Positions 5,122-27,251 of a stretch of 64,000 bases of DNA are shown here, piece by piece; within the stretch, counting starts at the first letter, position 1, and every line of letters begins with the position of its first letter. Source of the DNA: Leptolyngbya sp. FACHB-261 (GTDB lineage Bacteria > Cyanobacteriota > Cyanobacteriia > FACHB-261); assembly GCF_014696065.1 (NCBI RefSeq), contig NZ_JACJPL010000031.1:930001-994000 (forward strand). The letters run 5' to 3'. The notes beneath the pieces are model-generated. The model saw only the letters and a list, made by a program, of their open reading frames with translations, ran no database searches and was not told the DNA's origin. The position numbers and the translations under genes are program-made.

Positions 5122-5148
5122 AGCTAGTCTAGCTAGTCTAGCTAGTTC
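5122..5148. repeat. Three tandem 9-bp repeats at an AraC gene end
   Basis: The 9-mer AGCTAGTCT occurs at 5122 and 5131, and a one-base variant pair ends at 5148. The array overlaps the stop codon of the AraC-type gene (5138-5140). It is probably a slippage product. No function is evident. Confidence 0.6.
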
Positions 5149-6031: not shown

Positions 6032-6206
6032 CGCAGAGACCTTTCTATCTGCCTTAGTTTAAGGGATTTTAGGATGGTAGCCGCTTAGAATTTAGAACCT
6101 ATCGCAAGATGCTGATAGTTGCGCAAGGTTTGAGTAGTCAGTCGGCATTCAAATTTCTTAGATTGTAAACCGTGAATCAGTATTATGGCGAAGAGGCACA
6201 GCAATC
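6032..6206. promoter_or_regulatory. Divergent AraC-MATE promoter region
   Basis: 175 non-coding bases between divergent start codons of an AraC-type regulator and a MATE transporter. Any operator and both promoters must lie here, but I cannot point to a convincing direct repeat. The call rests on layout. Confidence 0.4.
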
Positions 6207-7586
6207 GTGACTAAAAGGTTAGTTAAATCGAGCATTGAGATAGAGGGTCGTGAATTTCTAAAACTTGCCGTCCCCCTAGCCAGTGCTCAAGTCGCCCAAG
6301 CTGCTGTTGGCTTTGTAGACACGATTATGATGGGCCACTTAAACACGGAAAGTCTAGCAGCTGGCGGCTTAGCATCAGTATCCTTTCAGCTTGTCTTGAA
6401 CATAGCGAGCGGTATCGTGATGGCAGTCAGCCCACTGGTCGCAGAAGCTTATGGGGCAGGCCGAAAAAGGCAAATCGAGCAAATTGCGCGTCAAGGAATA
6501 TGGTTATCGGTGCTTCTCAGCATCCCTCTGATGTTGATAATTAGGCATTTAGATTCAGCATTACTTTTGCTTCAGCAACCTGCGCCAATCGTTGCCCTTG
6601 CAGATCAGTATCTCAACTTCATCCTGTGGGGAATCTTTCCAGCGCTGGGGTTTGCGATGTTGAGAGGCTATGTATCGGCTATCTCCCAAGCCCATGTTGT
6701 GACCGTGATTGTCGTGATCGGAACGCTGTTCAATGTGGCAGGCAATTATATTTTAGGATTCGGTAAGTTTGGCTTTCCACGCATGGAGTTAGCGGGGCTA
6801 GGATTAGCCAGTGGGCTAAGCTTCTGGTTAATGTTCCTGATTTTCCTGATCTACATTCTTAGGCATCCACAGTTAAAGGAATACCGCTTCTTGCAGAATC
6901 TGCATCGGCTGAGGCCTCAGCTTCTGCAGCGTTTAATGGTGATTGGAGTCGCAATCGCCGTTACTATTGCCTTGGAATATGGATTGTTCGCAGTTATCAC
7001 ATTTCTCATGGGCATCTTGGGAACCGAAGTCCTAGCGGCGCATCAGACGGTCTACCAAACGATGTACATCATTTTCATGGTTCCCTTGGGGATGTCTTAT
7101 GCAGTTACTGCCCGCGTCGGTCAGTGGTTCGGACAGCAAGATCTTAAAGGGGCAAGACGAGCTGGGTATGTCAGCATTGGCATTGCAGCAACATTCATGG
7201 TCCTGACAGCCATCGCTTTAATCGTATATCGTCAACAGGTGATTGGCCTCTACTTGGATATTGACAACCCAGAGAATGCTTATGTAATCAGATTAGCCGT
7301 GCCGATGCTGCTCATCTCCGCGTTAGCTCAACTCTTGGATGGGGTACAGCGGGTCGCAATGGGTGCATTATATGGACTTCAAGATACCCGCCTACCGATG
7401 TTTTTAAGTGGGCTCGCTTTCTGGGGTGTGGGATTGACTAGTGGCTACCTGCTGGGATTTCCCTTAGGGCTGGGAGGTGTTGGACTGTGGACAGGACAAT
7501 CAATTGGGGTAGCCGTCGCTGGCGTGATTTTCGTGTGGCGTTTTCATAGGCTAACTGCCCGAAGATGCTACCTTGGTTCCGAGTGA
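6207..7586 (+). CDS. MATE-family multidrug/sodium efflux transporter
   Basis: A 459-residue protein with about 12 hydrophobic segments in two homologous halves. The first half opens with LAVPLASAQVAQAAVGFVDTIMMGHL, split here as PLASAQVAQA then FVDTIMMG, the MATE signature region. Such proteins export cationic drugs or metabolites in exchange for Na+ or H+. The start is GTG 6207. The size is normal for NorM/MATE proteins. It is divergent from an AraC-type regulator, suggesting substrate-induced expression. Confidence 0.9.
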   Translation: MTKRLVKSSIEIEGREFLKLAVPLASAQVAQAAVGFVDTIMMGHLNTESLAAGGLASVSFQLVLNIASGIVMAVSPLVAEAYGAGRKRQIEQIARQGIWLSVLLSIPLMLIIRHLDSALLLLQQPAPIVALADQYLNFILWGIFPALGFAMLRGYVSAISQAHVVTVIVVIGTLFNVAGNYILGFGKFGFPRMELAGLGLASGLSFWLMFLIFLIYILRHPQLKEYRFLQNLHRLRPQLLQRLMVIGVAIAVTIALEYGLFAVITFLMGILGTEVLAAHQTVYQTMYIIFMVPLGMSYAVTARVGQWFGQQDLKGARRAGYVSIGIAATFMVLTAIALIVYRQQVIGLYLDIDNPENAYVIRLAVPMLLISALAQLLDGVQRVAMGALYGLQDTRLPMFLSGLAFWGVGLTSGYLLGFPLGLGGVGLWTGQSIGVAVAGVIFVWRFHRLTARRCYLGSE

Positions 7587-11722: not shown

Positions 11723-12586
11723 ATGACATCAAACCCAGCACAACACATCATTAAGGGCTGGCTGTTCGAAGATATCTTGCTAGAGTTTTACCGCTATGCA
11801 CCCTGCCCTGCCGAATGGTTACCGGAACACTGCCATGATGAATACCAGTTTTGCTTGAGCCTTGATTGTCCTGGCGAGTATTATTATCGAGGCACTCACT
11901 ACTGGGTGCCCACTGGAAGTCTGAGTGTGATATATCCTGGCGAGATGCACACAGGGCGCGATATAGAAGACCGTCAGACTCCTGCTACGTTTCGCATGTT
12001 GTATATCAATCCTGATACGGTCAGAGCAGCAGCTTTAGAGATTGCCGGTAATGGAACCAATTTACCTTTTTTCTCTGATCCCATTATTCTAAATGCCGAT
12101 CTCGCCCAGCATTTTTTAGATTTTCACAAAGCTTCACAAGGAGTTGCTTCGAGGCTTGAGCAGGATTCTCTGTTGTTAGCTCTGCTGGCACAACTCCTTA
12201 TAAATCATACGGACATCTCACTTAAGCAAAGACTTGCCGGAAGAGAGCGTCAAGCAATCCGGCGAGTTCGTGAGTATTTGCAAGAACACTATGGAGAAGA
12301 TGTCACTCTCAATCATCTAGCTCAAATTGCAGGCTTAAGCTCGTACTACCTGAGCCGAGTTTTCAAAGCGGAAGTTGGTATCTCGCTGAAACAGTATCAG
12401 ACTCAAGTGCGGATTAACCACGCTAAAACTCTGCTTTCTCAAGGGATTGCAATCCAGCAAGTTGCTATAGACACAGGTTTTGTTGATCAGAGTCATTTTA
12501 CCCATCAGTTCAAGCGTTTAGTTCAGACCACCCCAGGACAATATCGTCTACAAGATCGCAAAAATCTACAAGACAATCTAGATTGA
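11723..12586 (+). CDS. AraC-family transcriptional regulator
   Basis: About 287 residues. The N-terminal part is a cupin domain (PEHCHDEYQFCLSL and YPGEMHTG give the fold), and the C-terminus has two HTH units (LNHLAQIAGLSSYYLSRVFK and VAIDTGFVDQSHFTHQFKR) with TTPGQYR. The frame is open to 11666, overlapping the upstream SDR by 17 bases. I prefer ATG 11723, which removes the overlap. Of the AraC-HTH/cupin type, it is more distant from the other two AraC proteins here. It lies between two SDR genes it may control. Confidence 0.88.
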   Translation: MTSNPAQHIIKGWLFEDILLEFYRYAPCPAEWLPEHCHDEYQFCLSLDCPGEYYYRGTHYWVPTGSLSVIYPGEMHTGRDIEDRQTPATFRMLYINPDTVRAAALEIAGNGTNLPFFSDPIILNADLAQHFLDFHKASQGVASRLEQDSLLLALLAQLLINHTDISLKQRLAGRERQAIRRVREYLQEHYGEDVTLNHLAQIAGLSSYYLSRVFKAEVGISLKQYQTQVRINHAKTLLSQGIAIQQVAIDTGFVDQSHFTHQFKRLVQTTPGQYRLQDRKNLQDNLD

Positions 12587-12639
12587 GTCGGCTAGTCTTC
12601 TAAAGGGAAAGTCTGACGAAGCTCGGAACCCTTGAAAAG

Positions 12640-13587
12640 ATGCCAAAACAGTTTGAAAATTCAGATGTCAATGCAGCTAATGGCGAGCGAAAATCTGCGG
12701 AGGGGCTGACTCGGAGGCAACTAGTGGTCGGTGGAGCCGCTGTTGCTGGGCTGACAACAGCAATAGCATCTGGAACAGCTCAGGCAAATACACAGAAACC
12801 ACCTGGGCCTGCATCTACTATCAACCCGAATGGCAGATTTGCAGGCAAGGTTGTGCTGATTACAGGAGCCACATCAGGAATTGGTGAAGGAACTGCCTAC
12901 GCATTTGCTAGAGAAGGTGCAAAGGTCTTCTTTTGCGGTCGGCGTGAGAATTTAGGCCGTCAAGTTGAAGCCCGAATTAAGGGATTTGGGGGCGAGTCAA
13001 CTTACATGCAGGCTGATGTGAGACGCGAAGAAGATGTCAAAGCATTTGTAGATGGCTGTGTTCAGAAATATGGTCGTTTGGATATTGCATTTAATAATGC
13101 AGGTATTGTCAATCCAAACCTGGCCAAATTGCACGAACAATCAGCTGCAGATTTTCTTGATACATTGAACACGAACACAACCGGGGTATTTTACTCACTA
13201 AAACATGAAATCCCCCATATGCTCAGGCAGAGGGGAGGCTGTATTGTCAACACAGCCTCAGTCTCAGGGCACAGGGGTTTTACAGAAATTGGTCCCTATA
13301 GTGTTAGCAAACATGCTCTGCTTGGATTAACCAAAGTAGCATCTTTAGAATACGCCAAAGACAACATTCGGATTACGTCAATTTCACCCGGTGGCGTAGA
13401 TACACCGATGTTGCGCCGGGTACGGGAACAGCGCGGTATGTCTTTTGAAGAAGGATCAAAAGCAATCCCTATTGGACGCACAAACACTGTTGAAGAAATG
13501 GCACGGGCTGTAATGTTTCTGGCGTCCGATGATGCTACTGCATTTCATGGCTCCCTAGTTGATGTCACTAGCGGAATACTGGATTAG
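12640..13587 (+). CDS. Tat-exported SDR oxidoreductase
   Basis: A 315-residue short-chain dehydrogenase with an N-terminal twin-arginine signal: TRRQLVVGG followed by a hydrophobic stretch and SGTAQA, about residues 24-50. The SDR domain follows with TGATSGIGEG, FNNAGIVNP and catalytic YSVSK, ending in the VDVTSGILD tail usual in glucose-dehydrogenase-like SDRs. A Tat signal fits export of a protein folded with NAD(P) already bound. The substrate is unknown. A second, broken Tat-SDR lies at 19867. Confidence 0.9.
   Translation: MPKQFENSDVNAANGERKSAEGLTRRQLVVGGAAVAGLTTAIASGTAQANTQKPPGPASTINPNGRFAGKVVLITGATSGIGEGTAYAFAREGAKVFFCGRRENLGRQVEARIKGFGGESTYMQADVRREEDVKAFVDGCVQKYGRLDIAFNNAGIVNPNLAKLHEQSAADFLDTLNTNTTGVFYSLKHEIPHMLRQRGGCIVNTASVSGHRGFTEIGPYSVSKHALLGLTKVASLEYAKDNIRITSISPGGVDTPMLRRVREQRGMSFEEGSKAIPIGRTNTVEEMARAVMFLASDDATAFHGSLVDVTSGILD
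12739..12761. repeat. Short inverted repeat in Tat-signal coding DNA
   Basis: GCTGTTG (12739-12745) and CAACAGC (12755-12761) form a 7-bp stem with a 9-base loop inside the signal-peptide codons of the Tat-SDR. It is weak alone, but two much longer hairpins occupy the same place in neighbouring exported genes. Confidence 0.35.
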
Positions 13588-13657
13588 TCCCTACAGATGT
13601 AACAGCACAGAACCATCCAAGCTTTTGGAAAACCATTTTTGAAATATTACGGGCAGT

Positions 13658-15136
13658 ATGAAACTACACAGCGCTTTTACACGACGTGGAATTATCCTGT
13701 CTGGGATCTCACTTCTATCGCTCTTGAGTACGGTCTCGATGGGCCGTACTCAAGAGCGCGCAGCTCAACAGCCTGCTTTTGATGCGGATGCTGCGAAACA
13801 AGTTGTCAACAACGTGGCTTTACTTGCAGATCAGCGCAAATGGCAAGAACTCTCAAGGCTCTTCTCTACTAAAGTTGTCTTGGATTACGGATATCCTGAG
13901 CTTCTGACTTCCCAAGAGATCATCGGTCGGTGGCAGCCACTGCTCACCGCATTCGATAACACTCGCCATCAGATCTCGCAGACTCAAGTTAGAGAAAAAG
14001 ATGGCCGAATCTTGGCCATCTCACGCTTTTCTGCCACTCACACCTTGAAGGGAGTTTCTGGTGGTGATCAGTGGACATTAGAAGGTCGCTACGAATATGA
14101 GTTTGAAAACCAGAATGGCACTCTCAAGATCATGCGAATGCGTATGATCCCAGGGAGATCTTCTGGCAATATTGAAGTTCTCAACGAAGCGAAAAGACGA
14201 TCGGGCATCGCAGATCCAGTTCGTAACCACACTGTTGAACACGTAACCTTTAAAAGTGGTGGGGACACTCTAAAGGGTTGGCTCTATAAACCCAACAACC
14301 CAAAAACAAATGAAGTCATTATTGCCGCTGGATCTTGGACAACTGTTAAAGAGCAGATGCCAATGCTCTACGCAAGACGATTCGCTGAAGATGGGTTGAC
14401 AACTCTGATCTTTGATTTCCGTGGCTACGGTGAAAGCGAAGGGCAACCTCGTCACTATGAATCGCCCCAACGGAAAACAGATGACTTCAAATCTGCCATC
14501 TCCTACATCTCACAGCGACCTGAACTGAGAAGTGCGAAAATCACGGTGGTAGGCGTTTGCGCCAGTGCGGGCTACGCTGCCAAAGCTGCAGCCGAAGACA
14601 GGAGGGTTCAGAGGCTTGCCTTAGTGGCCCCTTGGTTACACACACCTGAGATCGCTCGAAGCTCCTATGTTGCTCGTCCTGGCATTAGCCCTAATGGCTA
14701 CGATGGACTGCTCAACGAAGGACAAGATGCCCGCAAAACCTATGAGCGCACGGGCGAGGTTAGGTTTATTGCAAGTGCGAGCACTGATGATGCACGTGCT
14801 GCAATGTACGTTCCCTCGCCTGGAATTTATGATTACTACTTCAACACCAGCCGAGGGTTACTTCCACAATGGGGCAATCGATTCGCCGTTCTATCTTGGC
14901 CTGAGTGGCTCACCTACAACTCACACACTTCAGCACCGCTCATTCGCATACCAACGGTCATTGTCCACTCCGAAAATGGCGCGATTCCTCAAGGTGCCAA
15001 GGGATTCATTAGTGCAATGACCAATAAGCCAGAAGTTCACTGGATTAGTGGCTCACAGCTTGATTTCTATGATAGCGAGGCCAAGATCCGCGAAGCGCTC
15101 TCATTAGTCACCGCTTTCATCAACTCCCAGCAGTGA
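13658..15136 (+). CDS. Exported alpha/beta hydrolase with N-terminal SnoaL-like domain
   Basis: A 492-residue protein. Residues 1-31 form a signal with paired arginines (TRRGIILSG), possibly Tat. Residues ~45-165 resemble a SnoaL/NTF2-like fold (LFSTKVVLDYGYP). Residues ~190-490 are an alpha/beta hydrolase with DFRGYGESEG and the nucleophile elbow VGVCASAGY, which implies cysteine rather than serine as nucleophile. At the usual histidine position the C-terminal segment reads SGSQLDFYD, so the triad may be non-canonical. The substrate is unknown. It follows the Tat-SDR by 70 bases on the same strand and is probably co-expressed with it. Confidence 0.8.
   Translation: MKLHSAFTRRGIILSGISLLSLLSTVSMGRTQERAAQQPAFDADAAKQVVNNVALLADQRKWQELSRLFSTKVVLDYGYPELLTSQEIIGRWQPLLTAFDNTRHQISQTQVREKDGRILAISRFSATHTLKGVSGGDQWTLEGRYEYEFENQNGTLKIMRMRMIPGRSSGNIEVLNEAKRRSGIADPVRNHTVEHVTFKSGGDTLKGWLYKPNNPKTNEVIIAAGSWTTVKEQMPMLYARRFAEDGLTTLIFDFRGYGESEGQPRHYESPQRKTDDFKSAISYISQRPELRSAKITVVGVCASAGYAAKAAAEDRRVQRLALVAPWLHTPEIARSSYVARPGISPNGYDGLLNEGQDARKTYERTGEVRFIASASTDDARAAMYVPSPGIYDYYFNTSRGLLPQWGNRFAVLSWPEWLTYNSHTSAPLIRIPTVIVHSENGAIPQGAKGFISAMTNKPEVHWISGSQLDFYDSEAKIREALSLVTAFINSQQ
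13719..13758. repeat. 15-bp perfect hairpin in signal-peptide coding DNA
   Basis: CGCTCTTGAGTACGG at 13719-13733 and its exact reverse complement at 13744-13758 flank a 10-base loop. The element falls in codons ~21-34 of the exported hydrolase, at the end of the signal peptide. It may be an mRNA structure or a quasi-palindrome corrected by template switching. Confidence 0.8.
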
Positions 15137-15703
15137 AAAGGTGGGGAAGCATCAGCCAAAACAATTTGGGTGGATAGACTTGTTTTTGACAGGTCTATCC
15201 AATCAAAAAAGAGTTTCAAAGAAGAACTGGAGCTTAATGATTTAGGCAGTTACAGGCTGAGGATTGTTCTGTTGGTTCTGTTGCAACATCGCAGAGTTGA
15301 TCTCAATGTTTCGGGACTGAGCAACACGCCAACCATAATCCATATCAGCCCGGAAGAAATGGCAGAGTTGCTGCATTTGGATGCTCGGCGGTGCTCCACC
15401 TAGCACCCCTGCAATCGTTTGCCGAAGGTTTGATCAAAGGATATTGCTGAGCTATCCCTGACCTGAGTTGCAAGTAGCACGCTTTTGAAAGCACTGCATA
15501 ACTCAGGCAAGTTCTACCTATTCAATCAATAGGATATGGCGAGTTCCGCTAGACAGTAGCAGTTATGCTATCGGCATTTAGTGTAGGTACGAGTTCGAGT
15601 AACTCGGCATCATTATTCAGGCTAGGGCATCAGCGCCCGTTGTTTAAATTACCCAACTCGCAATCATGCCGTTCGCGCGCAATAATCCACAAGGGGAGAC
15701 AAA
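15137..15703. other. 567-base region without an intact gene
   Basis: It holds the catalase-like tail remnant on the minus strand (15242-15433), and otherwise no frame that I can support. The rest is probably eroded sequence plus the promoter of the downstream homocysteine methyltransferase-like gene. Confidence 0.5.
15242..15433 (-). pseudogene. Catalase-like C-terminal remnant
   Basis: The minus strand encodes 63 residues between two stops, with no start codon. It reads like the catalase-related C-terminal domain: TIAGVLGGAPPSIQMQQL then HFFRADMDYGWRVAQ, matching the family pattern of an (N)I-x-G-x-L stretch, IQxRQL and HFYxADPDYGxRVA. Nothing resembling the catalase heme domain remains upstream, where the frame is closed by TGA at 15434-15436. 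I infer the decayed end of a catalase gene. The assignment is from motif memory and has not been tested by a search. Confidence 0.5.
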
Positions 15704-16693
15704 ATGGCACAATACAGAAACTGTTTACCGCAGCTATCGAGCGATCTGTTCCTCACCGATGGTGGCATTGAAACCACGCTTATTTTTCACGAAGGATTAG
15801 AGTTACCAGACTTCGCTGCTTTCGATTTGTTGAGGCATGAGGCAGGGCAGAAAGCACTTCAGAAGTACTTTCGGACCTACGCCATGCTTGCTAAAGACTA
15901 TCAAATTGGTTTCATTCTTGAAAGTGCAACTTGGCGTGCTAATCCAGATTGGGCTGCCAAACTTGGCTATTCCAGCGAAGCATTAGCTGATATAAATCGC
16001 AAGGCAATCGAATTGCTTCATGCTATCCGAGAGGAATACGAGACTGAAAACACCCGCATGGTGATCAGTGGCTGCATTGGGCCTCGGGGCGATGGCTACG
16101 ATCCTGCTGAGCTGATGATCGAGGCGGAAGCAGAACAGTATCACCTAAACCAGATTGCAACTTTTCGGGATGCCGATGCGGATATGGTGAGTGCGATCAC
16201 CATGACCTATGTTGAGGAAGCGATTGGCATTGCCCGTGCAGCTCAGTCACTTGGCATGCCTGTAGCTATCTCCTTTACGGTTGAAACAGATGGCAAGCTG
16301 CCAACGGGTCAAACATTAAAGGATGCTATCGAACAAACTGACAGAGACACGAATAGTGCGCCCGCTTACTACATGATCAACTGTGCCCATCCAACTCACT
16401 TTTCGAGTGTGTTGGTTGAGGAGGAACCGTGGTTAGAACGAATTCGCGGCATTCGAGCGAATGCATCCACCAAGAGCCATGCTGAGCTGAATGAGGCAGA
16501 GCAATTGGATGACGGCAACCCAGAGGAACTCGGTAACCAGTACCGTGAGCTAAAAAGCAGCTTGAAGAATTTAAACGTGCTTGGGGGTTGTTGCGGCACA
16601 GATCATCGCCATGTCGAAGCGATCTGCAAAGCCTACCTGCCTCTGTTATGGACTCATGTCTCGCGAGGGGGACAACTACAGACTATCTACTAG
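15704..16693 (+). CDS. Homocysteine S-methyltransferase family protein
   Basis: A 329-residue zinc-dependent methyltransferase-type TIM barrel. The N-terminal TDGGIETTL motif and the zinc ligands NCAHP and GGCCGTD are all present. Family members transfer methyl from S-methylmethionine or betaine-type donors to homocysteine; substrate choice cannot be read here. The start is ATG 15704 after a GGGGAG ribosome site. It lies in the accessory island, away from methionine genes. Confidence 0.88.
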   Translation: MAQYRNCLPQLSSDLFLTDGGIETTLIFHEGLELPDFAAFDLLRHEAGQKALQKYFRTYAMLAKDYQIGFILESATWRANPDWAAKLGYSSEALADINRKAIELLHAIREEYETENTRMVISGCIGPRGDGYDPAELMIEAEAEQYHLNQIATFRDADADMVSAITMTYVEEAIGIARAAQSLGMPVAISFTVETDGKLPTGQTLKDAIEQTDRDTNSAPAYYMINCAHPTHFSSVLVEEEPWLERIRGIRANASTKSHAELNEAEQLDDGNPEELGNQYRELKSSLKNLNVLGGCCGTDHRHVEAICKAYLPLLWTHVSRGGQLQTIY

Positions 16694-16940
16694 ACGTTAT
16701 AGAGGTGCCATAGCAGAGCTACACCCGACCGCCGAGTAATCTTTTGAGACTTACTTTTGAGACTTATTAGCCTAAGCCTTGTTAGGTTATCTGCGGCGGG
16801 TGGTGGCATCGAGTGTTTAGAAGCTTTTAGAGCGGCCTCAAAAGGGCAATTCTATCCAATACAGCTCAGCTTGGGTCCGACAACCTTAAGGTGTCTAAAG
16901 CCGATTTCTTCACTCGGTATTCCTAAGCTTCGGCACGCCC

Positions 16941-18119
16941 ATGCGCATAACTTTACTCAAAGACTTCTCAGCCTCTGCGGTTATCGCAGGTTTTGTCACT
17001 GTATTGGTTGGGTTTACCAGCTCAGCCGTCATTGTTTTTCAGGCAGCCCAGGCCCTCCAGGCCTCACCCGCTGAGATTGGCTCCTGGATGTGTGCGCTCG
17101 GCTTAGGCATGGGGCTAACCTCCATCACCTTATCCCTGCGTTACCGAGTTCCAGTTGTAACCGCTTGGTCCACACCAGGGGCAGCGATGCTAATTACCTC
17201 GGCGGCTGGAGTTCCGATGAGGGAAGCGATCGGAGCATTTCTAATCTCAGGAGTATTGATCACGCTTTGCGGTTTTACCGGCTGGTTTGAGCGCATCATT
17301 AACCGCATTCCAATATCTATTGCTTCGGGGATGCTGGCTGGCGTTCTGTTGCGATTCGGGCTGGATGTCTTTGTCGCCATGAAGACGCAGTTTGTGATGA
17401 CGTTCGCTATGTTCTGCGTGTACTTGCTTGCACGCCGCACTGTGCCGCGCTACGCAGTTATTGCCGCGTTGCTAGTGGGTATAGCCATTGCTGGAGGACA
17501 AGGGCTACTGCATGTTGAGGCCGTACGCCTGCAACTGGCAGAGCCGGTTTTGACGCTGCCACAGTTTTCGGTTAGTGCCTTAGTTAGCATGGCCTTACCG
17601 CTGTTTGTGGTCACAATGGCCTCACAGAACGTGCCTGGAGTCGCCGTAATTCGTGCATCCGGCTACTCAGTCCCGATCTCGCCGCTGATCGGCTGGACTG
17701 GGGCTGCAACTCTCGTGTTGGCACCTTTTGGCGCTTTCGCCTTGAATCTTGCAGCGATTACAGCCGCTATTTGCATGGGTCGAGAAGCCCACGAAGATCC
17801 AGCTAAGCGTTATGTGGCAGCAGTTGCCGCTGGCGTCTTCCACATCTTGATTGGGCTATTTGGTGCCACAGTCGGGGCAGTATTCACGGCATTCCCCAAG
17901 GAACTGGTGCTTGCGATCGCCGGGCTGGCACTGTTAGGCACAATCGGCAATGGGCTAGCAGCCGCGTTGGCAAAAGAGGGAGAGCGCGAGCCTGCACTGA
18001 TTACATTCCTGGTAACGGCATCTGGCACTACCTTATTCGGGATCGGCTCAGCGTTTTGGGGGTTGGTGGGTGGTGCGTTATCGCTTGCGGTATTGCAGGC
18101 AAGGCGCCGTTCTGGGTAG
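16941..18119 (+). CDS. benE: BenE-family benzoate/H+ symporter-like transporter
   Basis: A 392-residue membrane protein with about 12 hydrophobic segments. The N-terminal VLVGFTSSAVIVFQAAQA, the TAWSTPGAA loop and the MASQNVPGVAVIRASGY segment are characteristic of BenE transporters. Family members import benzoate-like aromatic acids. No benzoate dioxygenase genes lie in the window, so the substrate is uncertain. The ATG start is 247 bases after the previous gene, implying its own promoter. Confidence 0.85.
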   Translation: MRITLLKDFSASAVIAGFVTVLVGFTSSAVIVFQAAQALQASPAEIGSWMCALGLGMGLTSITLSLRYRVPVVTAWSTPGAAMLITSAAGVPMREAIGAFLISGVLITLCGFTGWFERIINRIPISIASGMLAGVLLRFGLDVFVAMKTQFVMTFAMFCVYLLARRTVPRYAVIAALLVGIAIAGGQGLLHVEAVRLQLAEPVLTLPQFSVSALVSMALPLFVVTMASQNVPGVAVIRASGYSVPISPLIGWTGAATLVLAPFGAFALNLAAITAAICMGREAHEDPAKRYVAAVAAGVFHILIGLFGATVGAVFTAFPKELVLAIAGLALLGTIGNGLAAALAKEGEREPALITFLVTASGTTLFGIGSAFWGLVGGALSLAVLQARRRSG

Positions 18120-18162
18120 TTGCCTTATGCTGCTCTAGAATGAACACCAGAACAGGTTCAAA

Positions 18163-18591
18163 ATGAGATCTTTTTGGCGTTGGTTCAGACTGTATAGCCT
18201 AGGGGCTTACTGGATTGTCCTATTGGGCTCAATGTACTTAAGTATCGTTAGTAACTCGCCTCCGTCACAAGAGATGAACCCACTATCGATCACAAATTTT
18301 GAGGGAGACCTGCACAGAACTATTGTTGCTTCCTTCGTTGAAATTGCTTTACTGCATTTGATCTTGCGCCCCTGGTCATTTGAGCGCCCTACCGGTAGAA
18401 CTGCATTGGCGCTGGTGTTACTGCTCATGTGGACAGGATTACTGCTTTACGCAACTACAAATACAAAACTGGTGAGCCAAGTTTCTCTCATTCACCTGCT
18501 CTGGCTAGTTGTTCTTAATGCCGGTCTATTGAGTGCTGCTGTATGGGGTATTGGACGTTATTTACACCGCTCACGCCAACGTTCACGCTAG
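18163..18591 (+). CDS. Hypothetical four-helix membrane protein
   Basis: A 142-residue protein with four predicted membrane segments (about residues 12-28, 50-67, 77-96 and 108-130) and a basic C-terminus (HRSRQRSR). There are no motifs I recognise. It is 43 bases after benE on the same strand, so possibly co-transcribed. Confidence 0.6.
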   Translation: MRSFWRWFRLYSLGAYWIVLLGSMYLSIVSNSPPSQEMNPLSITNFEGDLHRTIVASFVEIALLHLILRPWSFERPTGRTALALVLLLMWTGLLLYATTNTKLVSQVSLIHLLWLVVLNAGLLSAAVWGIGRYLHRSRQRSR

Positions 18592-18845
18592 AACCACGAG
18601 TTCGCCCCTCAGGAAAATCGTATCAAATTCAATTTGAATTGCTTCTGCAATAAAATCTAAAACGAAGATCAGGAAAGGCATTATTTCTTGAATCCCTGTA
18701 CCAATTCATATTCCTTATTCATCAACACGATGCTATTTGTGGAGTGATAGCACAGAAACAACAGTTGCTTACAGCTCTGTAGTAGGGTGATCACTCCAGG
18801 GGCACCACTGTATACTTCTCATGTAGCTTCTGCGAACTCAACCCG

Positions 18846-19790
18846 ATGCACCAGCGCCAGTTTAAGGATGATCCCCTCAAGCCAATTAGCCTATTGGATG
18901 AGTTACCGGATCAGCCCTTGCTTTCGAGCAAGTCAAAAAGCTGGAAAGGCATTGCGGTTGAATACTATCATCATCCTGCCAATAGTCTGGTTTCTCCTCC
19001 GCTTGCACACCATCTCATCACCTTGAACTGTGGAACACCGTATCGCTTAGTGCAGCAGTTGGACGGACAGGTTTATGAAGCCGAAGTTACCAGGGGAGAC
19101 ATGATCTTGACTCCTGCTAATCGCCCCACTGAATGGGCCTGGCACAATGAGGTTAATGTTTTACATTTGTGTCTTGAGCCAGCCTTAGTTGCCAAGGTAG
19201 CCCTAGAAGCAGTTGAGGTTGATTCGGTCCGCGTTGAAATTCTCAATCATTTTGCAGCGGCTGATCCTCAAATCCGACAAATCGGCCAATTGCTTCTTGC
19301 AGAATTAGAATCTAAAAAAGTGGGCAGTCGTCTTTATGCTGAGTCATTAGTCAATGCTCTAGTCGTTCACTTAATCAGAGAGTACAGCACCATTGAAAGA
19401 TCAGTTCAGCAGTACACAGGGGGCTTATCTGAGTCGAAATTAAAACAAGTCATTGCTTACATACAGGAACATCTAAATCAGGATTTGAGTTTGGAGGAAA
19501 TTGCGGCTGAAGTCAATTTGAGCGCATATCATTTCGCACGCTTATTCAAGCGATCAACCGGTTCAGCACCGCATCAGTATCAGATTCATTGTCGGGTTGA
19601 GCGTGCCAAGGAATTATTGCAGCAGGGCGAGATGGCCATCACCGATATTGCTACTCAGGTCGGTTTTTACGATCAAAGTCACCTTAGCCGCCACTTCAAG
19701 CGAATTGTGGGGGTTTCTCCTAAAGCGATGCAGCAGAGTAGCAAGAATGTCCTATGGATTAGCAAGAGTGTCCAAGACTGCACTGCCTGA
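18846..19790 (+). CDS. AraC-family transcriptional regulator
   Basis: A 314-residue regulator. The N-terminal half is a ligand domain, and the C-terminal half has LEEIAAEVNLSAYHFARLFK and ITDIATQVGFYDQSHLSRHF, then GVSPKAM, giving the two AraC HTH units. It is a paralogue of the regulator at 5138-6031. It stands directly upstream of the broken Tat-SDR and the run of exported proteins to 24 kb, all on the same strand, so it is the best candidate controller of that run. Confidence 0.9.
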   Translation: MHQRQFKDDPLKPISLLDELPDQPLLSSKSKSWKGIAVEYYHHPANSLVSPPLAHHLITLNCGTPYRLVQQLDGQVYEAEVTRGDMILTPANRPTEWAWHNEVNVLHLCLEPALVAKVALEAVEVDSVRVEILNHFAAADPQIRQIGQLLLAELESKKVGSRLYAESLVNALVVHLIREYSTIERSVQQYTGGLSESKLKQVIAYIQEHLNQDLSLEEIAAEVNLSAYHFARLFKRSTGSAPHQYQIHCRVERAKELLQQGEMAITDIATQVGFYDQSHLSRHFKRIVGVSPKAMQQSSKNVLWISKSVQDCTA

Positions 19791-19866
19791 GTCCTTCTAG
19801 AGTTGGAACAGATAACGAGAAGCGTCTAGCGCTTACTCCAACTGGATTTCAAAAGGAGTGGTTGGT

Positions 19867-20168
19867 ATGAACGCCGATAATGATAGAGGCTCTTCCCCAG
19901 CCAAAATCTTTTCGACTCGCCGCAAACTGATTGTGGGTGGGGCAACTGCTCTTGGCACTGTGGCAGCAGAAAGCATACTTTCTGCTGCCACAGTGCCGCA
20001 CAACAGCCGTCCACAAATCCGCAAGTGCTAGCTAAGGGAGACGGGGTTGCGGGCAAAGTTGACCTCATCAGTAGTGCAGCACGCGGCATTGGGCGAGTGC
20101 CGACTCTGAGACTGGCAGGCGAGGGCGCTGATATGGTGGCTAAGGCCACGGGCAATTATGAAATCTAG
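19867..20168 (+). pseudogene. Broken Tat-exported SDR gene
   Basis: The gene starts well (AAGGAG site at 19852, ATG 19867) with a twin-arginine signal, TRRKLIVGGATALG. It then hits TAG in frame after NSRPQIRKC. In the next frame the SDR fold continues as LAKGDGVAGKVDLI, SSAARGIGR and LAGEGADMVAKA, ending at 20168, so there is a frameshift near 20010. The remaining ~200 residues (NNAG, YxxxK) are missing: the frame runs directly into the start of the next gene at 20158, pointing to a deletion. The intact homologue type is seen at 12640. Confidence 0.8.
19954..19997. repeat. 20-bp perfect hairpin in Tat-signal coding DNA
   Basis: Bases 19954-19973 and 19978-19997 are exact reverse complements around the loop CATA. 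The hairpin lies in the signal-peptide region of the broken SDR and encodes a near-symmetric TVAAES/LSAATV segment. It is too long to be chance. Confidence 0.9.
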
Positions 20169-20865
20169 GCGACGCAAGTTTATTTACGGTGTTGCGACTG
20201 TCTTGATGGTTTCGATCCTTTTAGGAATTGCATCGCTCAACACTAGCTCACAAGTTGCGAGCGCTCAAAGCCAAAACGGCATAATTCAGAGTCAGATGAC
20301 TACACCAATTCGTGTTTGCTCTGCTGAAACCCTGAATCGAACTGCTACCCCAAACATGAACGCTAATGAGCGTTTGGCGCTACCCAGTGAGTTTCATCGC
20401 AAACTTCAGCCAATGATTGGAACATTTCGCGTCAGGCAAACTGCACGGTTTACAGCCAACGCAATGCCTGTTGAATTCACCGGAATTACGGCACGCCGCT
20501 ATTGGTTGGAGGATTGCACAACTCTCTTTGAAATCATGGAAGGTGCGGCTAATGAGCAACCATTCACACGGCTTGCTCTCTACACTTACCAACCTCTCGA
20601 TCAGGAATACCAACTGGCATCAATGGATACCCGCACTCCTGGTCTAATGAGCCTTCGCAACGTTGGGATTGAGGGCAACAATATTAGCTTTGGCATGACC
20701 TATACCTTCCCAGGTCTTACTTCAGACATTGATGGACGTTCTACCAAGTTGCGCCATGTTCTTCAGATTCAGAGCAACCGGCGACAGGTATTAAGTCAAT
20801 ATTTCCAATATCCGGCAGAAAACGAGTTTTTAGCAATTGAATATACTTACGAACGCATTCAATAG
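20158..20865 (+). CDS. Exported DUF1579-like protein
   Basis: A 235-residue protein with a basic start (KSRRRKF) and a hydrophobic signal segment to about residue 38. The mature part has the pattern MIGTFRVRQTARF, ITARRYWLEDCTTLFEIM, PFTRLALYTYQPLDQEY and MDTRTPG, resembling DUF1579 beta-barrel proteins, which often sit with VOC proteins. No catalytic residues are known for the family. The start overlaps the tail of the SDR pseudogene by 11 bases, and no strong ribosome site is visible. Confidence 0.65.
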   Translation: MKSRRRKFIYGVATVLMVSILLGIASLNTSSQVASAQSQNGIIQSQMTTPIRVCSAETLNRTATPNMNANERLALPSEFHRKLQPMIGTFRVRQTARFTANAMPVEFTGITARRYWLEDCTTLFEIMEGAANEQPFTRLALYTYQPLDQEYQLASMDTRTPGLMSLRNVGIEGNNISFGMTYTFPGLTSDIDGRSTKLRHVLQIQSNRRQVLSQYFQYPAENEFLAIEYTYERIQ

Positions 20866-20912
20866 CGGCTCTATTCGGTGAAGAAGCTTGAAATGGCAAA
20901 TCGATTACACAT

Positions 20913-21470
20913 ATGCGAAGATTTTTGAGAATTGCTTTGAGTACCTTTGCAGTTCTGGTTCTTGTGAACTTTTTGGCAATGCAGCCAAAGCAAACAGAAG
21001 TGCAAGCGCAGCCTACAACTTCAGATCTCACAGTGAATCAATCAACCGTTATGCCACTGGGCTCTCCAAGACCTCATCATGTGGCACTATCTGTTCCCAA
21101 CTTTGAAGAAACACTCCAATGGTATCAAGACAAACTCGGCTTCAAAGTCACTCTTAGACGTGATTTGACCCAGCTATCAACGCAGCAAGCATTTTTAGAA
21201 CTGAATGGATTTCGCCTTGAGATCTTCGCACGGCAAAACTCGGCCCGGGCACAGCCACCACCTGCAACAGTTCCCGATGATTTATTGGTACAGGGATACA
21301 AGCATATTGCTCTCGCAGTGGATGATTTGGATGCAGTTCCAGCAGAGCTCAAAAGGCGAGGTGTGAGATTCTTATGGGAGCCAACGGTAGATGAAGCGCT
21401 TCAGCTCAAGCTTTGCTTCATCAAAGACAACAATGGCAATTTGATCGAACTCGTCCAGGAACTTAATTAA
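20913..21470 (+). CDS. VOC/glyoxalase-family protein with export signal
   Basis: A 185-residue protein. Residues 1-32 are signal-like (MRRFLRIALS, then a hydrophobic run ending VQAQ). The VOC domain follows: PHHVALSVPNFEETLQWYQDKLGF, then GYKHIALAVDDLDAVPAELKRRG and DNNGNLIELVQ, the two beta-alpha-beta-beta-beta modules. Metal-ligand positions are H in PHHVAL, E in LEIFA, H in KHIALAV and E in LIELV. VOC enzymes include dioxygenases, lyases and isomerases; this one's reaction is unknown. Export is unusual for the family. Confidence 0.85.
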   Translation: MRRFLRIALSTFAVLVLVNFLAMQPKQTEVQAQPTTSDLTVNQSTVMPLGSPRPHHVALSVPNFEETLQWYQDKLGFKVTLRRDLTQLSTQQAFLELNGFRLEIFARQNSARAQPPPATVPDDLLVQGYKHIALAVDDLDAVPAELKRRGVRFLWEPTVDEALQLKLCFIKDNNGNLIELVQELN

Positions 21471-21488
21471 AAGTCGAGAGGAGTGTTT

Positions 21489-22079
21489 ATGAAACCTTTT
21501 ACACAGAACCATCCGTTTTTTAAGAGTGTCGCTGCCTCGGCTATTCTGTCTAGCTCACTCCTCGTCTTATTTCAAGCCACCCAATCCGCCAAGGCGCGAA
21601 CTTTTGAGAATTCAGCAAGCCCTCCTCACTCAACGATTAGTCAACATGCTGAAGCTGCTGCAAAAAACGGTCTAGATTCGCTGCAAATCTTCAACGTTGC
21701 GATTTCTGTCTCGGATATTGACGCATCTGTAAAGTGGTATGAGGATAATCTAGGTTTCCAGCTTCAGAACAGACGCCGTGTTTCTACAGGAATTGAGATT
21801 GCCTTAATTGAAAACAATGGATTCTTTATTGATCTAATTCATATTGCTGGCAGCGAAAACTTAGAGGGCAGCCCGAAAGAACCACCAGATCACCTTAAGG
21901 TACAAGGATTGAGAAATTTGGTCTTCTGGGTCGATGACCTGAAATCCGCAGATGCTCAGCTTAAGTCAAAAGGAGTTGAACTTATTTGGGAGAGTAGATA
22001 CATTCCTGAAGTTGGAACTTCTGTCACTAATTTCCGCGATAACAATGGCAACTTGATTGCAATCTGGGAGAGAAACTGA
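21489..22079 (+). CDS. VOC/glyoxalase-family protein with export signal
   Basis: About 196 residues. A GAGAGGAG ribosome site at 21476-21483 favours ATG 21489 over the in-frame GTG 21483. The N-terminus has a hydrophobic signal (SVAASAILSSSLLVLFQA) ending near AKA. The VOC domain shows NVAISVSDIDASVKWYEDNLGF, RNLVFWVDDLKSADAQLKSKG and DNNGNLIAIWE. Two usual metal-ligand positions differ: the second-module histidine is Asn/Leu-like (LRNLVFW) and the final glutamate is shifted, so metal binding may be altered. It is 18 bases after the previous VOC gene, in the same unit. Confidence 0.85.
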   Translation: MKPFTQNHPFFKSVAASAILSSSLLVLFQATQSAKARTFENSASPPHSTISQHAEAAAKNGLDSLQIFNVAISVSDIDASVKWYEDNLGFQLQNRRRVSTGIEIALIENNGFFIDLIHIAGSENLEGSPKEPPDHLKVQGLRNLVFWVDDLKSADAQLKSKGVELIWESRYIPEVGTSVTNFRDNNGNLIAIWERN

Positions 22080-22149
22080 ACATTCTCTCGGCAAGGTTGA
22101 TCATTGTTGATCACATTTTTTGCGCAAATTCTACTTCTTCTTAAACTCT

Positions 22150-23313
22150 ATGCAACCTTCAATTCGCAGAACGCTAACTGTTGTCATCCCTGCCGTTCTC
22201 CTGGTGAGCGCGACTGGACTCACTGCTGCACAAAACTCAACCCGACAAGAACCTGTGCGCCAGGTTACTCAAGCTACAGTCAGGTTACCTGAAAGACCTG
22301 TAACGAATGAAGTTGAGCTTGAAGTCGTTGCGACTCTGCCGATTCGTCCCTCGGCTGTTGTTAGAACACAGGATGGCAGAATCATTTGGACAGAGCATTT
22401 CGGTGCGCCGAACCCAAATAAAGTTCACGAATTGCTACCGGATGGCACTCTCCGCGACTATCCTGCTGGAGCAAAATATGAATCTCATTCCCTACGGCTA
22501 GACAGCAAAGGGGTTCTTTGGATGCTAGATATGGGTGGGAACGGTAGATTGCCAAAGTTAGTGGGATGGAATACAAACACCGAAACACTAGTGAAAGAAA
22601 TCTCCATTTCTCCACCAGCTTATGAGCCAAATTCTGCACTTCAAGACTTTGTGATTGACGAGAAAAACAATCAGGCCATTATTGCAGACACAGGTGGCGG
22701 CTTTGAGCCTCAACGGTTTAATCCTGCATTGGTGGTGGTTGACTTAAATAGTGGGCAGGCACGTCGCATCCTACAGGGACACCGCACTGTGCAGGCCGAG
22801 CCGCTCAACACTATCATTGAAGGGAAACCCTTGATGCTGACTATCGATAAGCAAGGCACACAAATCCCTTCCCGTTGGGGTGTGAATGGCATTGCCCTTG
22901 ATCCGGTTCAGGAGTGGCTTTACTACGCTCCCATGACAAGTACGAGCGTCTACCGTATTGCAACTCAGGATTTAGCAAATGCAAACCTCAGCGCAAGTGA
23001 ACTGGGTAGCCGAGTGCAAAGGTATGGTGACCGGAACATTGGTGATGGTTTAATGGTCGATACCGCCGGCAATGTCTACAACACAGATTTACAATACAAC
23101 GCGATTGGTGTTACCAACGATCAAGGCAACTATCGATTGATTCGTCGTGATGACAAACTATTGAACTTCAGCGAAGGCTTTGAACCTGCTGTAGATGGCT
23201 ATGTTTATGTAGCAACGAACCAAGCGCACAGAAGTGTCTTCTTTCAGCCTGTGGATAGCGGTGTTCCGCCTTATTACCTGCTCCGTTTTCGACCACTTGC
23301 ACCGGCCCGCTAA
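22150..23313 (+). CDS. Exported major royal jelly/yellow-family protein
   Basis: About 387 residues with an export signal (SIRRTLTVVIPAVLLVSATGLTAA). The remainder is a six-bladed propeller of the MRJP/yellow type: LRLDSKGVLWMLDMG, FVIDEKNNQAIIADTG, GIALDPVQEWLYYAPM and YGDRNIGDGLMVDTAGN. Bacterial members are often annotated as L-dopachrome tautomerase-related or SMP-30-like; activity is unproven. The frame is open to 22120, and ATG 22150 places the basic signal start best. It shares strand and context with the VOC genes. Confidence 0.82.
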   Translation: MQPSIRRTLTVVIPAVLLVSATGLTAAQNSTRQEPVRQVTQATVRLPERPVTNEVELEVVATLPIRPSAVVRTQDGRIIWTEHFGAPNPNKVHELLPDGTLRDYPAGAKYESHSLRLDSKGVLWMLDMGGNGRLPKLVGWNTNTETLVKEISISPPAYEPNSALQDFVIDEKNNQAIIADTGGGFEPQRFNPALVVVDLNSGQARRILQGHRTVQAEPLNTIIEGKPLMLTIDKQGTQIPSRWGVNGIALDPVQEWLYYAPMTSTSVYRIATQDLANANLSASELGSRVQRYGDRNIGDGLMVDTAGNVYNTDLQYNAIGVTNDQGNYRLIRRDDKLLNFSEGFEPAVDGYVYVATNQAHRSVFFQPVDSGVPPYYLLRFRPLAPAR

Positions 23314-23452
23314 ACGCTCCCGGTAGGATTGGCACCGTGCCTTTGTACTAATTTTGGGTTGATTAAACTGGCGAATTTTATGCGTGATTAGTTGCAATTG
23401 CGGCCTTGTAAGTGATGGCTTTGTAAGTGAATTTCCAGTTGGAGAACTAGCC

Positions 23453-23992
23453 GTGCTCAGAAAATTGTGGCCAGCCATCACTCTATCAGTTTTAATGATA
23501 GGTTTTTTGGCAATGTATAGCGCTGCTCAACAGACTCCTCGGCAGCCAGCTCAAAATGCTGCACCGTTAGCGCAGCGTCAGCTCCCACTGCAAATTCACC
23601 ACATGACCGTGTCGGTTGCAGATGTCAATACTGCATCGAAATGGTATTCAGAGAAGCTGGGTTTTAATGAAACCCAGCGGGTCGTCTTAGATAACGGCAA
23701 TGTCCAAATCGCTTGGATGGAAATACCAGGGTTCCGCATCGATCTGGCTCAAGTCAAGAGGTCAATCAGACCAGAGGAGCAAAATGTACTTCCTCCTCAA
23801 CACATGCTCTCGCAGGGCTGGCGACATTTAGCATTTGCAGTTGATGACGTCGATCAAGCCTATGAAATATTGAGGGCACGTGGTGTTGAATTTGTTAGTC
23901 CACCAGCAACCTACAATCCACCTGGTATTCGCATTGTCTATTTTAGGGATATAGATGGCAATATCTTAGAGTTATATAAAGATATCCAATGA
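23453..23992 (+). CDS. VOC/glyoxalase-family protein with export signal
   Basis: About 179 residues, GTG start at 23453 preceded by GGAGAA at 23441. The signal segment is KLWPAITLSVLMIGFLAM, ending near SAAQ. The VOC domain has IHHMTVSVADVNTASKWYSEKLGF, WRHLAFAVDDVDQAYEILRARG and DIDGNILELYK, with the H/E ligand positions all kept. It is the third exported VOC protein in 3 kb and closes the same-strand run. Confidence 0.85.
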   Translation: MLRKLWPAITLSVLMIGFLAMYSAAQQTPRQPAQNAAPLAQRQLPLQIHHMTVSVADVNTASKWYSEKLGFNETQRVVLDNGNVQIAWMEIPGFRIDLAQVKRSIRPEEQNVLPPQHMLSQGWRHLAFAVDDVDQAYEILRARGVEFVSPPATYNPPGIRIVYFRDIDGNILELYKDIQ

Positions 23993-24107
23993 CCAATCAT
24001 GGTCAATAGTAATAACTTACGACCGAATTTTGTATTAAGATGCTTGTCGGTCAACCACTACGTATAGTTGAATAAACTGTGAAATCTTCTCGGCTTAGAT
24101 AAGCGCC

Positions 24108-24603
24108 GTGAGATTAATTCCTGTTAATGAAGAAGTTTTACAAGTCATTGAAGAGGGAGGCGAGCACTTTAGCATTTATTTTCAAGCTGAGTTAGCAGAA
24201 AACTCAGACCTTGTGAGGGAAGTTGTACAGCAGACCCTAGCAATGACGACAGCCAGGACTCCAAACCTGCCTTGGCTGGGTTATCTTGCTATAGATGATA
24301 AAACTAAGGTTGTAGTTGGTACTTGTGCTTTTAAAGCTGCGCCAACTCCTGATGGCGTGGTCGAAATTGCTTATTTCACCTTTCCCCAGTTCGAGGGCCA
24401 GGGTTACGCAACAGCAATGGCAGAAAAGCTGATCGCGATTGGCGTAGAGTCAGCCGAAGTCCGTCACATAATTGCCCATACCTTACCCGAACGCAATGCA
24501 TCAGCCAGGATTCTGGCAAAAGTTCGGTATGCAGCTGGTAGGCGAAGTCGAGGATCCTGAAGATGGAAGGGTTTGGCAGTGGCAAGTAGAGAATGCTGTT
24601 TAA
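24108..24603 (+). pseudogene. GNAT acetyltransferase with C-terminal frameshift
   Basis: From GTG 24108 the frame encodes a GNAT protein (GYLAIDDKTKVVVGTCAFK, TFPQFEGQGYATAMAEKLIA, NASARILAKV). After AKV it runs out as RYAAGRRSRGS and stops at 24560. The neighbouring frame from 24529 continues the family's normal end, MQLVGEVEDPEDGRVWQW, to TAA 24603. One extra base near 24525 explains this. The protein may survive with a changed tail that lacks the last beta strands. It could also be a sequencing error. Confidence 0.8.
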
Positions 24604-24681
24604 CCTTGTGAGTCAACATACAATCAATAAGACTACAACCGCATTGTTTGGGATTGCGACTAAAGACTGGAACTGGTCAAG

Positions 24682-25020
24682 ATGCAAGATACTACCAAAA
24701 TTATTGACTTTCATGCTCATATCTACTTTGACCCTGCAAGCCGGGACGCAGCGGCCCGTATCCGCGAAGGATTAAGCACTAGGTTTGAAGTACAACTAGG
24801 GCGTTGGCATGACCGGCCCATCGGCCCTCATCCCAAAGCGATGTATCAAGTTGCATTTTCTCCAGAGCAATTCGGCAAGCTTGTTCCCTGGTTAATGCTC
24901 AATCGTGAGGGGCTAGATATTTTGGTTCACCCTGAAACAGGGGACGATGTGGGAGACCATACCGACCGCTCTTTGTGGTTAGGAGAGAAGCTAGAGCTTA
25001 ATGTCGAGTTTCTTCGGTAA
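24682..25020 (+). CDS. DOPA 4,5-dioxygenase-family protein
   Basis: A 112-residue single-domain protein with DFHAHIYFD, the WHDRPIGPHP loop and DILVHPETGDDVGDHT, the histidine-rich pattern of the DOPA 4,5-dioxygenase family (extradiol cleavage of catechols in fungal betalain-type and bacterial homologues). Size is normal. It is cytoplasmic. It lies beside the VOC/MRJP run, another hint of aromatic-compound chemistry, though the native substrate is unknown. Confidence 0.88.
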   Translation: MQDTTKIIDFHAHIYFDPASRDAAARIREGLSTRFEVQLGRWHDRPIGPHPKAMYQVAFSPEQFGKLVPWLMLNREGLDILVHPETGDDVGDHTDRSLWLGEKLELNVEFLR

Positions 25021-26510: not shown

Positions 26511-27251
26511 ATGGAGCCCAAGGTATTCCAAGCGACCAGAGCCTTTCTGAGAACCCTCATTATAGGAATCAGTATCGCAGGTAGCAGTGCAATTGCCCAA
26601 ACGATTCCCCTGCCAGCAAATCTGATCGCCTTCAACTCAGAGCAGGGCGAGGAACTTCTATTGGAGAGTGAGGCTAAGGATGACTTCTGGAATCTCAGTA
26701 TGCAGTTTGTCACCCAAATCAACCAAGCTTACTGTGGGGTTGCCAGCATGGTGATGGTGCTGAATAGTTTAGGCATCCCAGCGCCCGCATCAGCTCAATA
26801 TGCTCCGTATCGCGTATTCACCCAAGAGAATTTTTTTGAAAACCAAGCGGCTCAGCAAGTGCTCAGTCCTAATGTCGTTGCACGCCAAGGCATAACTTTG
26901 GATGAACTGGGGCGATTGCTTGGCAGCTATTCGGTCCAGGCTCAGGTTTACCATAGTAGTGATACCAATCTGGCAGAGTTTCGCAGGCTGGTCGTAGCGA
27001 ATCTAAGCCAGCCTGGAAATTTCGTTCTGGTGAACTATCTGCGCGGCAAAATTGGGCAGGAACGAGGTGGACATATCTCACCACTGGCAGCCTATGACCA
27101 GGAGAGCGATCGTTTTCTGATTCTAGATGTGGCCCGTTATAAGTACCCGCCCGTTTGGGTAAAAGCAGAAGATTTATGGGAAGCGATGGCAACAACGGAT
27201 GCAACAGCCGGTAAAACCCGTGGGTTCGTTTTGGTTAGCCGTAATCCTTGA
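26511..27251 (+). CDS. Phytochelatin synthase-like peptidase
   Basis: A 246-residue protein with an N-terminal hydrophobic segment ending near AIAQ, probably a signal. The papain-like catalytic triad is visible: Cys in NQAYCGVASMV, His in GGHISPLAAYD and Asp in ILDVARYKYPPVWV. Length and lack of a Cys-rich C-terminus match the cyanobacterial short form, which mainly hydrolyses glutathione to gamma-Glu-Cys and has little polymerising activity. Export to the periplasm is inferred. A hairpin with a T run follows. Confidence 0.9.
   Translation: MEPKVFQATRAFLRTLIIGISIAGSSAIAQTIPLPANLIAFNSEQGEELLLESEAKDDFWNLSMQFVTQINQAYCGVASMVMVLNSLGIPAPASAQYAPYRVFTQENFFENQAAQQVLSPNVVARQGITLDELGRLLGSYSVQAQVYHSSDTNLAEFRRLVVANLSQPGNFVLVNYLRGKIGQERGGHISPLAAYDQESDRFLILDVARYKYPPVWVKAEDLWEAMATTDATAGKTRGFVLVSRNP

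Follow-up and report, generated by a model that had tools for sequence, protein, structure and literature searches.

Positions 12640–25020 of a 64,000-nucleotide (nt) stretch of the Leptolyngbya sp. FACHB-261 genome (G000:C31:930001–994000 of 6.95 Mb; hereafter the window, whose numbering we use for its genes) are organized as two adjacent groups of exported-enzyme genes, each headed by an AraC-type regulator gene, together with unlinked neighbours. An initial annotation had described the interval as a single island for a periplasmic pathway acting on aromatic or phenolic compounds. Pfam and NCBIfam scans recovered every gene that it named, each in its place. The co-location of exported oxidoreductase, VOC, MRJP/yellow-family and hydrolase genes with AraC genes is well supported, recurs elsewhere and withstood a check of relatives for scattered homologues and missing signals. 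A single 12-kb pathway island was rejected, because the conserved loci split in two and omit the BenE, DOPA-dioxygenase-like (DODA), GNAT and homocysteine S-methyltransferase (HSMT) genes. An aromatic or phenolic substrate is possible.

All genes of the two groups lie on the forward strand. The left group (11723–15136) comprises AraC1 (11723–12586, with an ATG at 11723 and the Pfam domains AraC_binding and HTH_18), a short-chain dehydrogenase/reductase (SDR) with a twin-arginine translocation (Tat) signal, which we call type A (12640–13587), and an exported fusion of a SnoaL_4 domain to an alpha/beta hydrolase (13658–15136). The right group (18846–23992) runs in the order AraC2 (18846–19790, Pfam), a remnant Tat-SDR of a second type, type B (19868–20158), an exported DUF1579 protein (20158–20865, recognized by PF07617 and its signal score), VOC1 (20913–21470), VOC2 (21483–22079), an MRJP/yellow-family protein modelled as a six-bladed propeller (22120–23313) and VOC3 (23384–23992). 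The three VOC proteins, of which VOC1 is of the VOC/glyoxalase kind, were assigned by Pfam and alignment and carry export signals.

A recurrent AraC and Tat-SDR arrangement

The type A SDR begins with a Tat signal (TRRQLVVGGAAVAG...AQANTQ), and its core carries GATSGIG, FCGRRE, NNAG and YxxSK. Across family alignments of 36 and 49 sequences, the Tat signal and the segment after the cleavage site (ANTQ-PPxP...NPxGRF) are conserved and the catalytic residues are invariant; the hallmarks of classical SDRs (GxxxGIG, NNAG, S and YxxxK) are present in the window protein and throughout the alignment. A structure model reaches a pLDDT (predicted local distance difference test) of 85.5, with about 81 for the post-cleavage segment. 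The nearest solved structure is 7djs, the cyclic-alcohol enzyme isopiperitenol dehydrogenase, with 42% identity over the core; the match is limited to that core and excludes the Tat signal and the N-terminal arm. Against the PRK06172-type classical SDRs the protein scores 257 bits, below the cut-off of 336.

Matches to this protein at E ≤ 1e-60 occur in 40 of the 388 genomes of the class (cyanobacteria), and in each of the 40 the best match begins at or before query residue 25, within the signal. We read the neighbourhoods of 39 loci holding 48 Tat-SDRs, three of these loci being from elsewhere in this genome. Within four genes of a Tat-SDR, AraC genes are found at 34 loci, aldo-keto reductase (AKR) genes at 28 and SnoaL genes at 16; none of the three occurs at 17 control loci, where MRJP genes stand alone and which together comprise 265 genes. 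Fisher values for this excess are tiny, but ignore the kinship of the genomes. At 30 of the 39 loci the AraC gene is immediately upstream on the same strand, mostly 14–170 bp away. In the nearest relative (G065), 54 bp separate an AraC gene (77% identity) from the Tat-SDR gene downstream of it (85% identity), and a hydrolase gene comes next. The left group is one local form of an arrangement that recurs in cyanobacteria: AraC and Tat-SDR, with or without an exported SnoaL protein, a hydrolase and an AKR. A search of the open-access PMC literature, which does not by itself prove novelty, returned no paper on a cyanobacterial AraC/SDR/AKR or Tat-SDR system, and as far as we found the arrangement is apparently undescribed.

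Two Tat-SDR loci (L096, 8089–11376; L097, 10686–14376) lack AraC and have a response-regulator-like gene instead, adjoined by a gene whose product resembles thioredoxin/DsbA by eye, which suggests the same enzyme under a different regulator.

The third gene of the left group, previously described as an exported hydrolase, encodes the SnoaL_4–hydrolase fusion behind a Tat-like signal (FTRRGIIL). Plasmid pDAETH-1 of Deinococcus aetherius (L130, 5700–11300) encodes a Tat-SDR relative (61% identical, frame-shifted in the record). Behind it, SnoaL_4 and alpha/beta hydrolase are encoded by two separate genes, and the run also has further SnoaL-like genes and one of the TatA/TatE family; a similar gene run is thus seen in a second phylum. 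The fused open reading frame aligns with the Deinococcus SnoaL_4 and hydrolase neighbours at 32% identity over 150 residues and 38% over 299 residues, respectively. That the two are separate neighbours in Deinococcus but fused in the cyanobacterium argues for a functional link between the two activities.

The right group and its conserved core

Two other genera of cyanobacteria share the core of the right group. The series AraC–VOC2–MRJP–VOC3–VOC1, with an enoyl-CoA hydratase-like gene after it, is found in Phormidium tenue FACHB-886 (G206, locus L004) and in G179 (locus L029), mostly at 65–77% identity, and is headed in both by AraC2 orthologues that are 71–73% identical. Next to the AraC gene of L004, and divergent from it, are a Tat-SDR gene and two SnoaL genes. 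The genome under study holds a paralogous run on another contig (G000:C16), flanked by AraC and including two Tat-SDRs, an exported VOC protein, an exported MRJP, two AKRs and hydrolases.

In alignments, VOC1 keeps the ligands of a VOC metalloenzyme (H-E-H-E), as does VOC3 (H-D-H-E); VOC2 has no metal ligands (N-D-N-A) in any of the three genomes and does not belong with the metalloenzymes. The true start of VOC3 is probably nearer its signal (VLRKLWPAITLSV), where its relatives start. VOC1 and VOC3 score far below the cut-offs of the NCBIfam models for catechol 2,3-dioxygenase and 4-hydroxyphenylpyruvate dioxygenase (4HPPD), and on these scores the VOC proteins were rejected as ring-cleaving dioxygenases. 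A plasmid search with VOC1 gave no match. VOC3-like proteins of G065 and G246 are encoded beside a Tat-exported AKR. At L091 (8147–9912) and L092 (9012–11681), from two genomes, a Tat-exported AKR adjoins a VOC3-like exported protein, with a LysR-type gene near.

The MRJP protein matches PF03022 with 73.9 bits (cut-off 19.8). Its model (pLDDT 86.7) is closest in fold to 2qe8 (Ava_4197, a putative cyanobacterial hydrolase), MRJP1, the Aedes dopachrome conversion enzyme and SMP-30 lactonases, with the same six-bladed propeller. It differs from most cyanobacterial homologues, which stand alone (17 loci), in having VOC genes beside it and in being apparently exported. On three marine plasmids, genes for MRJP homologues adjoin zinc-dependent alcohol dehydrogenase or NADPH:quinone reductase genes, with LysR.

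A remnant dehydrogenase and the mycofactocin family

The second Tat-SDR of the interval is broken, as had been noted before: a Tat signal, a frame break and some 40 residues from the beginning of a Rossmann fold, which is truncated, are left, and the remnant runs straight into the start codon of the DUF1579 gene. It scores 42 bits against a type B profile and 21 bits against a type A profile, and the genome therefore probably once had a type B SDR in the right group that has since been lost. Within the signal region of the remnant, positions 19954–19997 form an inverted repeat of two perfectly matching 20-nt arms around a 4-nt loop, and it reads in frame. No second copy with 3 or fewer mismatches occurs in the genome, for which reason an operator or a mobile element was rejected and a mutational scar is likelier, possibly one left by template switching.

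Type B proteins, a second Tat-exported SDR type, are paired with type A at some loci, and relatives at E ≤ 1e-75 occur in 5 of the 388 genomes. They resemble the mycofactocin-associated SDRs of TIGR03971 (carveol dehydrogenase type), in which an insertion buries the NAD and makes it non-exchangeable, and which have been reported only together with mycofactocin genes (PMC5264612). Four relatives score 311.6, 318.5, 300.8 and 289.8 bits, at or near the TIGR03971 cut-off of 300, and a more distant one 258; the copy in the window, being a remnant, cannot be scored fairly. Type B matches the model end to end, including a stretch that type A lacks; type A falls about 22 residues short and scores 174–179 bits, below the cut-off. 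The mycofactocin maturase MftC (TIGR03962) was found above its cut-off in 0 of the 388 genomes and in 0 of the 9 entries with these SDRs or clusters. Unlike the TIGR03971 norm, type B thus combines a Tat signal, a place beside type A and AraC, and genomes with no detectable maturase, and the reported restriction to company with mycofactocin genes seems not to hold for these copies.

Export signals

Export was judged by a home-made score for a positively charged n-region, a hydrophobic stretch and an A-x-A-like site. All seven enzymes that had been called exported pass it, five of them consecutively encoded between 20158 and 23992, and similar N-terminal signals are present in aligned relatives. 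The pass rate is 7 of 13 genes in the block and 9 of about 47 in the rest of the window (one-sided Fisher p ~0.02). Among the 52 strong Tat-SDR matches, 48 have the twin arginine and an N-terminal extension, in line with a Tat signal that has a hydrophobic stretch and an A-x-A-type site. The signals themselves are well supported; the route by which the proteins leave the cytoplasm is probably Tat for those with twin-arginine signals.

Proposed working and alternatives

Dehydrogenases that use nicotinamide cofactors normally depend on the NAD(P)H pool of the cytoplasm. The reading that we prefer, tentatively and with a confidence a little short of even, is that the two groups are AraC-regulated redox modules working outside the cytoplasm, in the periplasm or the thylakoid lumen, with each AraC heading a co-directional run of exported enzymes. 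A small-molecule effector would switch the AraC protein on. The SDR would enclose its nicotinamide cofactor while folding in the cytoplasm, and Tat would export the loaded enzyme. As free NAD(P)H is not expected to form a pool on the outside, the SDR would have to work with a cofactor that stays locked in place. Turnover could couple the oxidation of one substrate to the reduction of another, as in glucose–fructose oxidoreductase (GFOR), or pass electrons to an external carrier. The two metal-binding VOC proteins, the MRJP propeller and the hydrolase would then rearrange or open the product, and the net task may be the handling in the envelope of reactive carbonyl, quinone or cyclic-alcohol compounds.

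GFOR, judging by PMC4628093 and by the title of Halbig 1999 as cited in PMC7317946, is a precedent for the export of an NADP-loaded enzyme by Tat. It and the aldose–aldose oxidoreductase (Gfo/Idh/MocA family; Zymomonas and Caulobacter) likewise place a Tat signal on a nicotinamide oxidoreductase, and an exported enzyme of this kind must bring its own cofactor. The fold family differs, however: the window protein has only SDR-type Pfam domains and is not a Gfo/Idh/MocA member. A wider proposal, which we regard as doubtful, is that Tat-exported SDRs of cyanobacteria hold their nicotinamide permanently, with type B as a mycofactocin-family enzyme that works without mycofactocin. Dehydrogenase reactions would then proceed outside the cytoplasm, under AraC-type regulators, while some other electron carrier of the envelope (a quinone, a cytochrome or a co-substrate) recharges the bound cofactor. 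If the SDRs are indeed exported, the widespread AraC-linked arrangement offers a defined place in cyanobacteria to study enzyme turnover outside the cytoplasm.

Several points weigh against the proposal of AraC-regulated exported modules. The proposal as a whole is built on sequences and predicted structures; regulation by AraC is suggested by adjacency, and the signal peptides by the home-made score. Periplasm and thylakoid lumen are indistinguishable as destinations. The 49-sequence SDR alignment was selected on the twin arginine, which makes its invariance there circular. The control loci are not random ones, and the neighbour counts are not independent events, because the sampled genomes are related. 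The right group is the rarer of the two, its cluster appearing in only three genomes, and DUF1579 is absent from the related loci that we read and so is not part of its conserved content. Type A lacks the TIGR03971 insertion, so that a locked cofactor is a conjecture for it.

A possible, if unlikely, alternative is that these are accessory stress genes: lineage-specific SDR, AKR and VOC duplicates gathered round AraC, whose exported forms act independently on toxic carbonyls in no concerted pathway. The differing gene content of the loci fits this, as does the presence of broken Tat-SDR copies both here and on the Deinococcus plasmid. The order AraC–VOC2–MRJP–VOC3–VOC1, kept in two genomes and nearly so in the window, speaks against it, and so do the SnoaL–hydrolase fusion and the adjacent, co-directional AraC gene at 30 of the 39 Tat-SDR loci.

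We consider it rather improbable that the groups complete a cyanobacterial natural product or pigment in the periplasm. The analogy would be with scytonemin, an aromatic compound whose last steps of synthesis are carried out in the periplasm by the exported enzymes ScyD/E/F (PMC6282210). Like those enzymes, the proteins described here would act on a small molecule after export from a cyanobacterial cytoplasm, and an exported propeller whose fold matches dopachrome conversion enzyme, VOC proteins and an SDR would suit tailoring. No core biosynthetic gene was recognized beside either group in the Pfam and NCBIfam scans, however, and the varying neighbours of the Tat-SDR fit detoxification or utilization better than a fixed biosynthesis. 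Scans of the block genes with the same libraries recognized no scyD/E/F, with no direct search for scy or ebo genes made.

A single periplasmic catabolic pathway for benzoate, DOPA or catechols, with uptake by BenE and ring opening by the DOPA-dioxygenase-like protein, is very improbable: all the genes lie within 12 kb and ring-cleaving dioxygenases do occur among VOC families, but in relatives BenE and DOPA_dioxygen lie apart from the clusters, no conserved locus that we read contains either, VOC1 and VOC3 miss the dioxygenase cut-offs and VOC2 has no metal ligands.

Neighbouring genes

The remaining genes of the interval, also on the forward strand, encode HSMT (15704–16693), the BenE transporter (16941–18119), a 142-residue membrane protein (18163–18591), a GNAT protein (24108–24560) and the DOPA_dioxygen protein (24682–25020). 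HSMT, GNAT and the membrane protein, which the initial annotation had passed over, are not exported enzymes of the kind described above, and none of the five is present in the conserved loci that we read. BenE and the DOPA-dioxygenase-like gene had been counted as parts of the pathway. Among the 10 genomes checked, BenE is found in 5 others, each time on a different contig from the clusters, and DOPA_dioxygen in only 1 other, again on a contig other than that of its cluster; no relative has them in a conserved locus. Because they are unlinked in relatives, the benzoate or DOPA reading loses its anchor and rests on chance neighbours.

Positions 16001–18000, across HSMT and BenE, have a G+C content of 0.53, against 0.46–0.48 in the flanks, and may mark an insert of separate origin. 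Scans for promoters and terminators gave fewer sites than in shuffled sequence. A divergent pair of AraC and MATE-transporter genes lies at 5138–7586; a similar pair (AraC 46% identical) is found at 16233–18631 of L029, 3.5 kb from the VOC–MRJP cluster of G179, and the wider neighbourhood, this pair included, may be conserved between the two genomes. Downstream of the interval, 26511–27251 encodes a protein with a phytochelatin-synthase domain (PF05023) and an N terminus that resembles a signal peptide.

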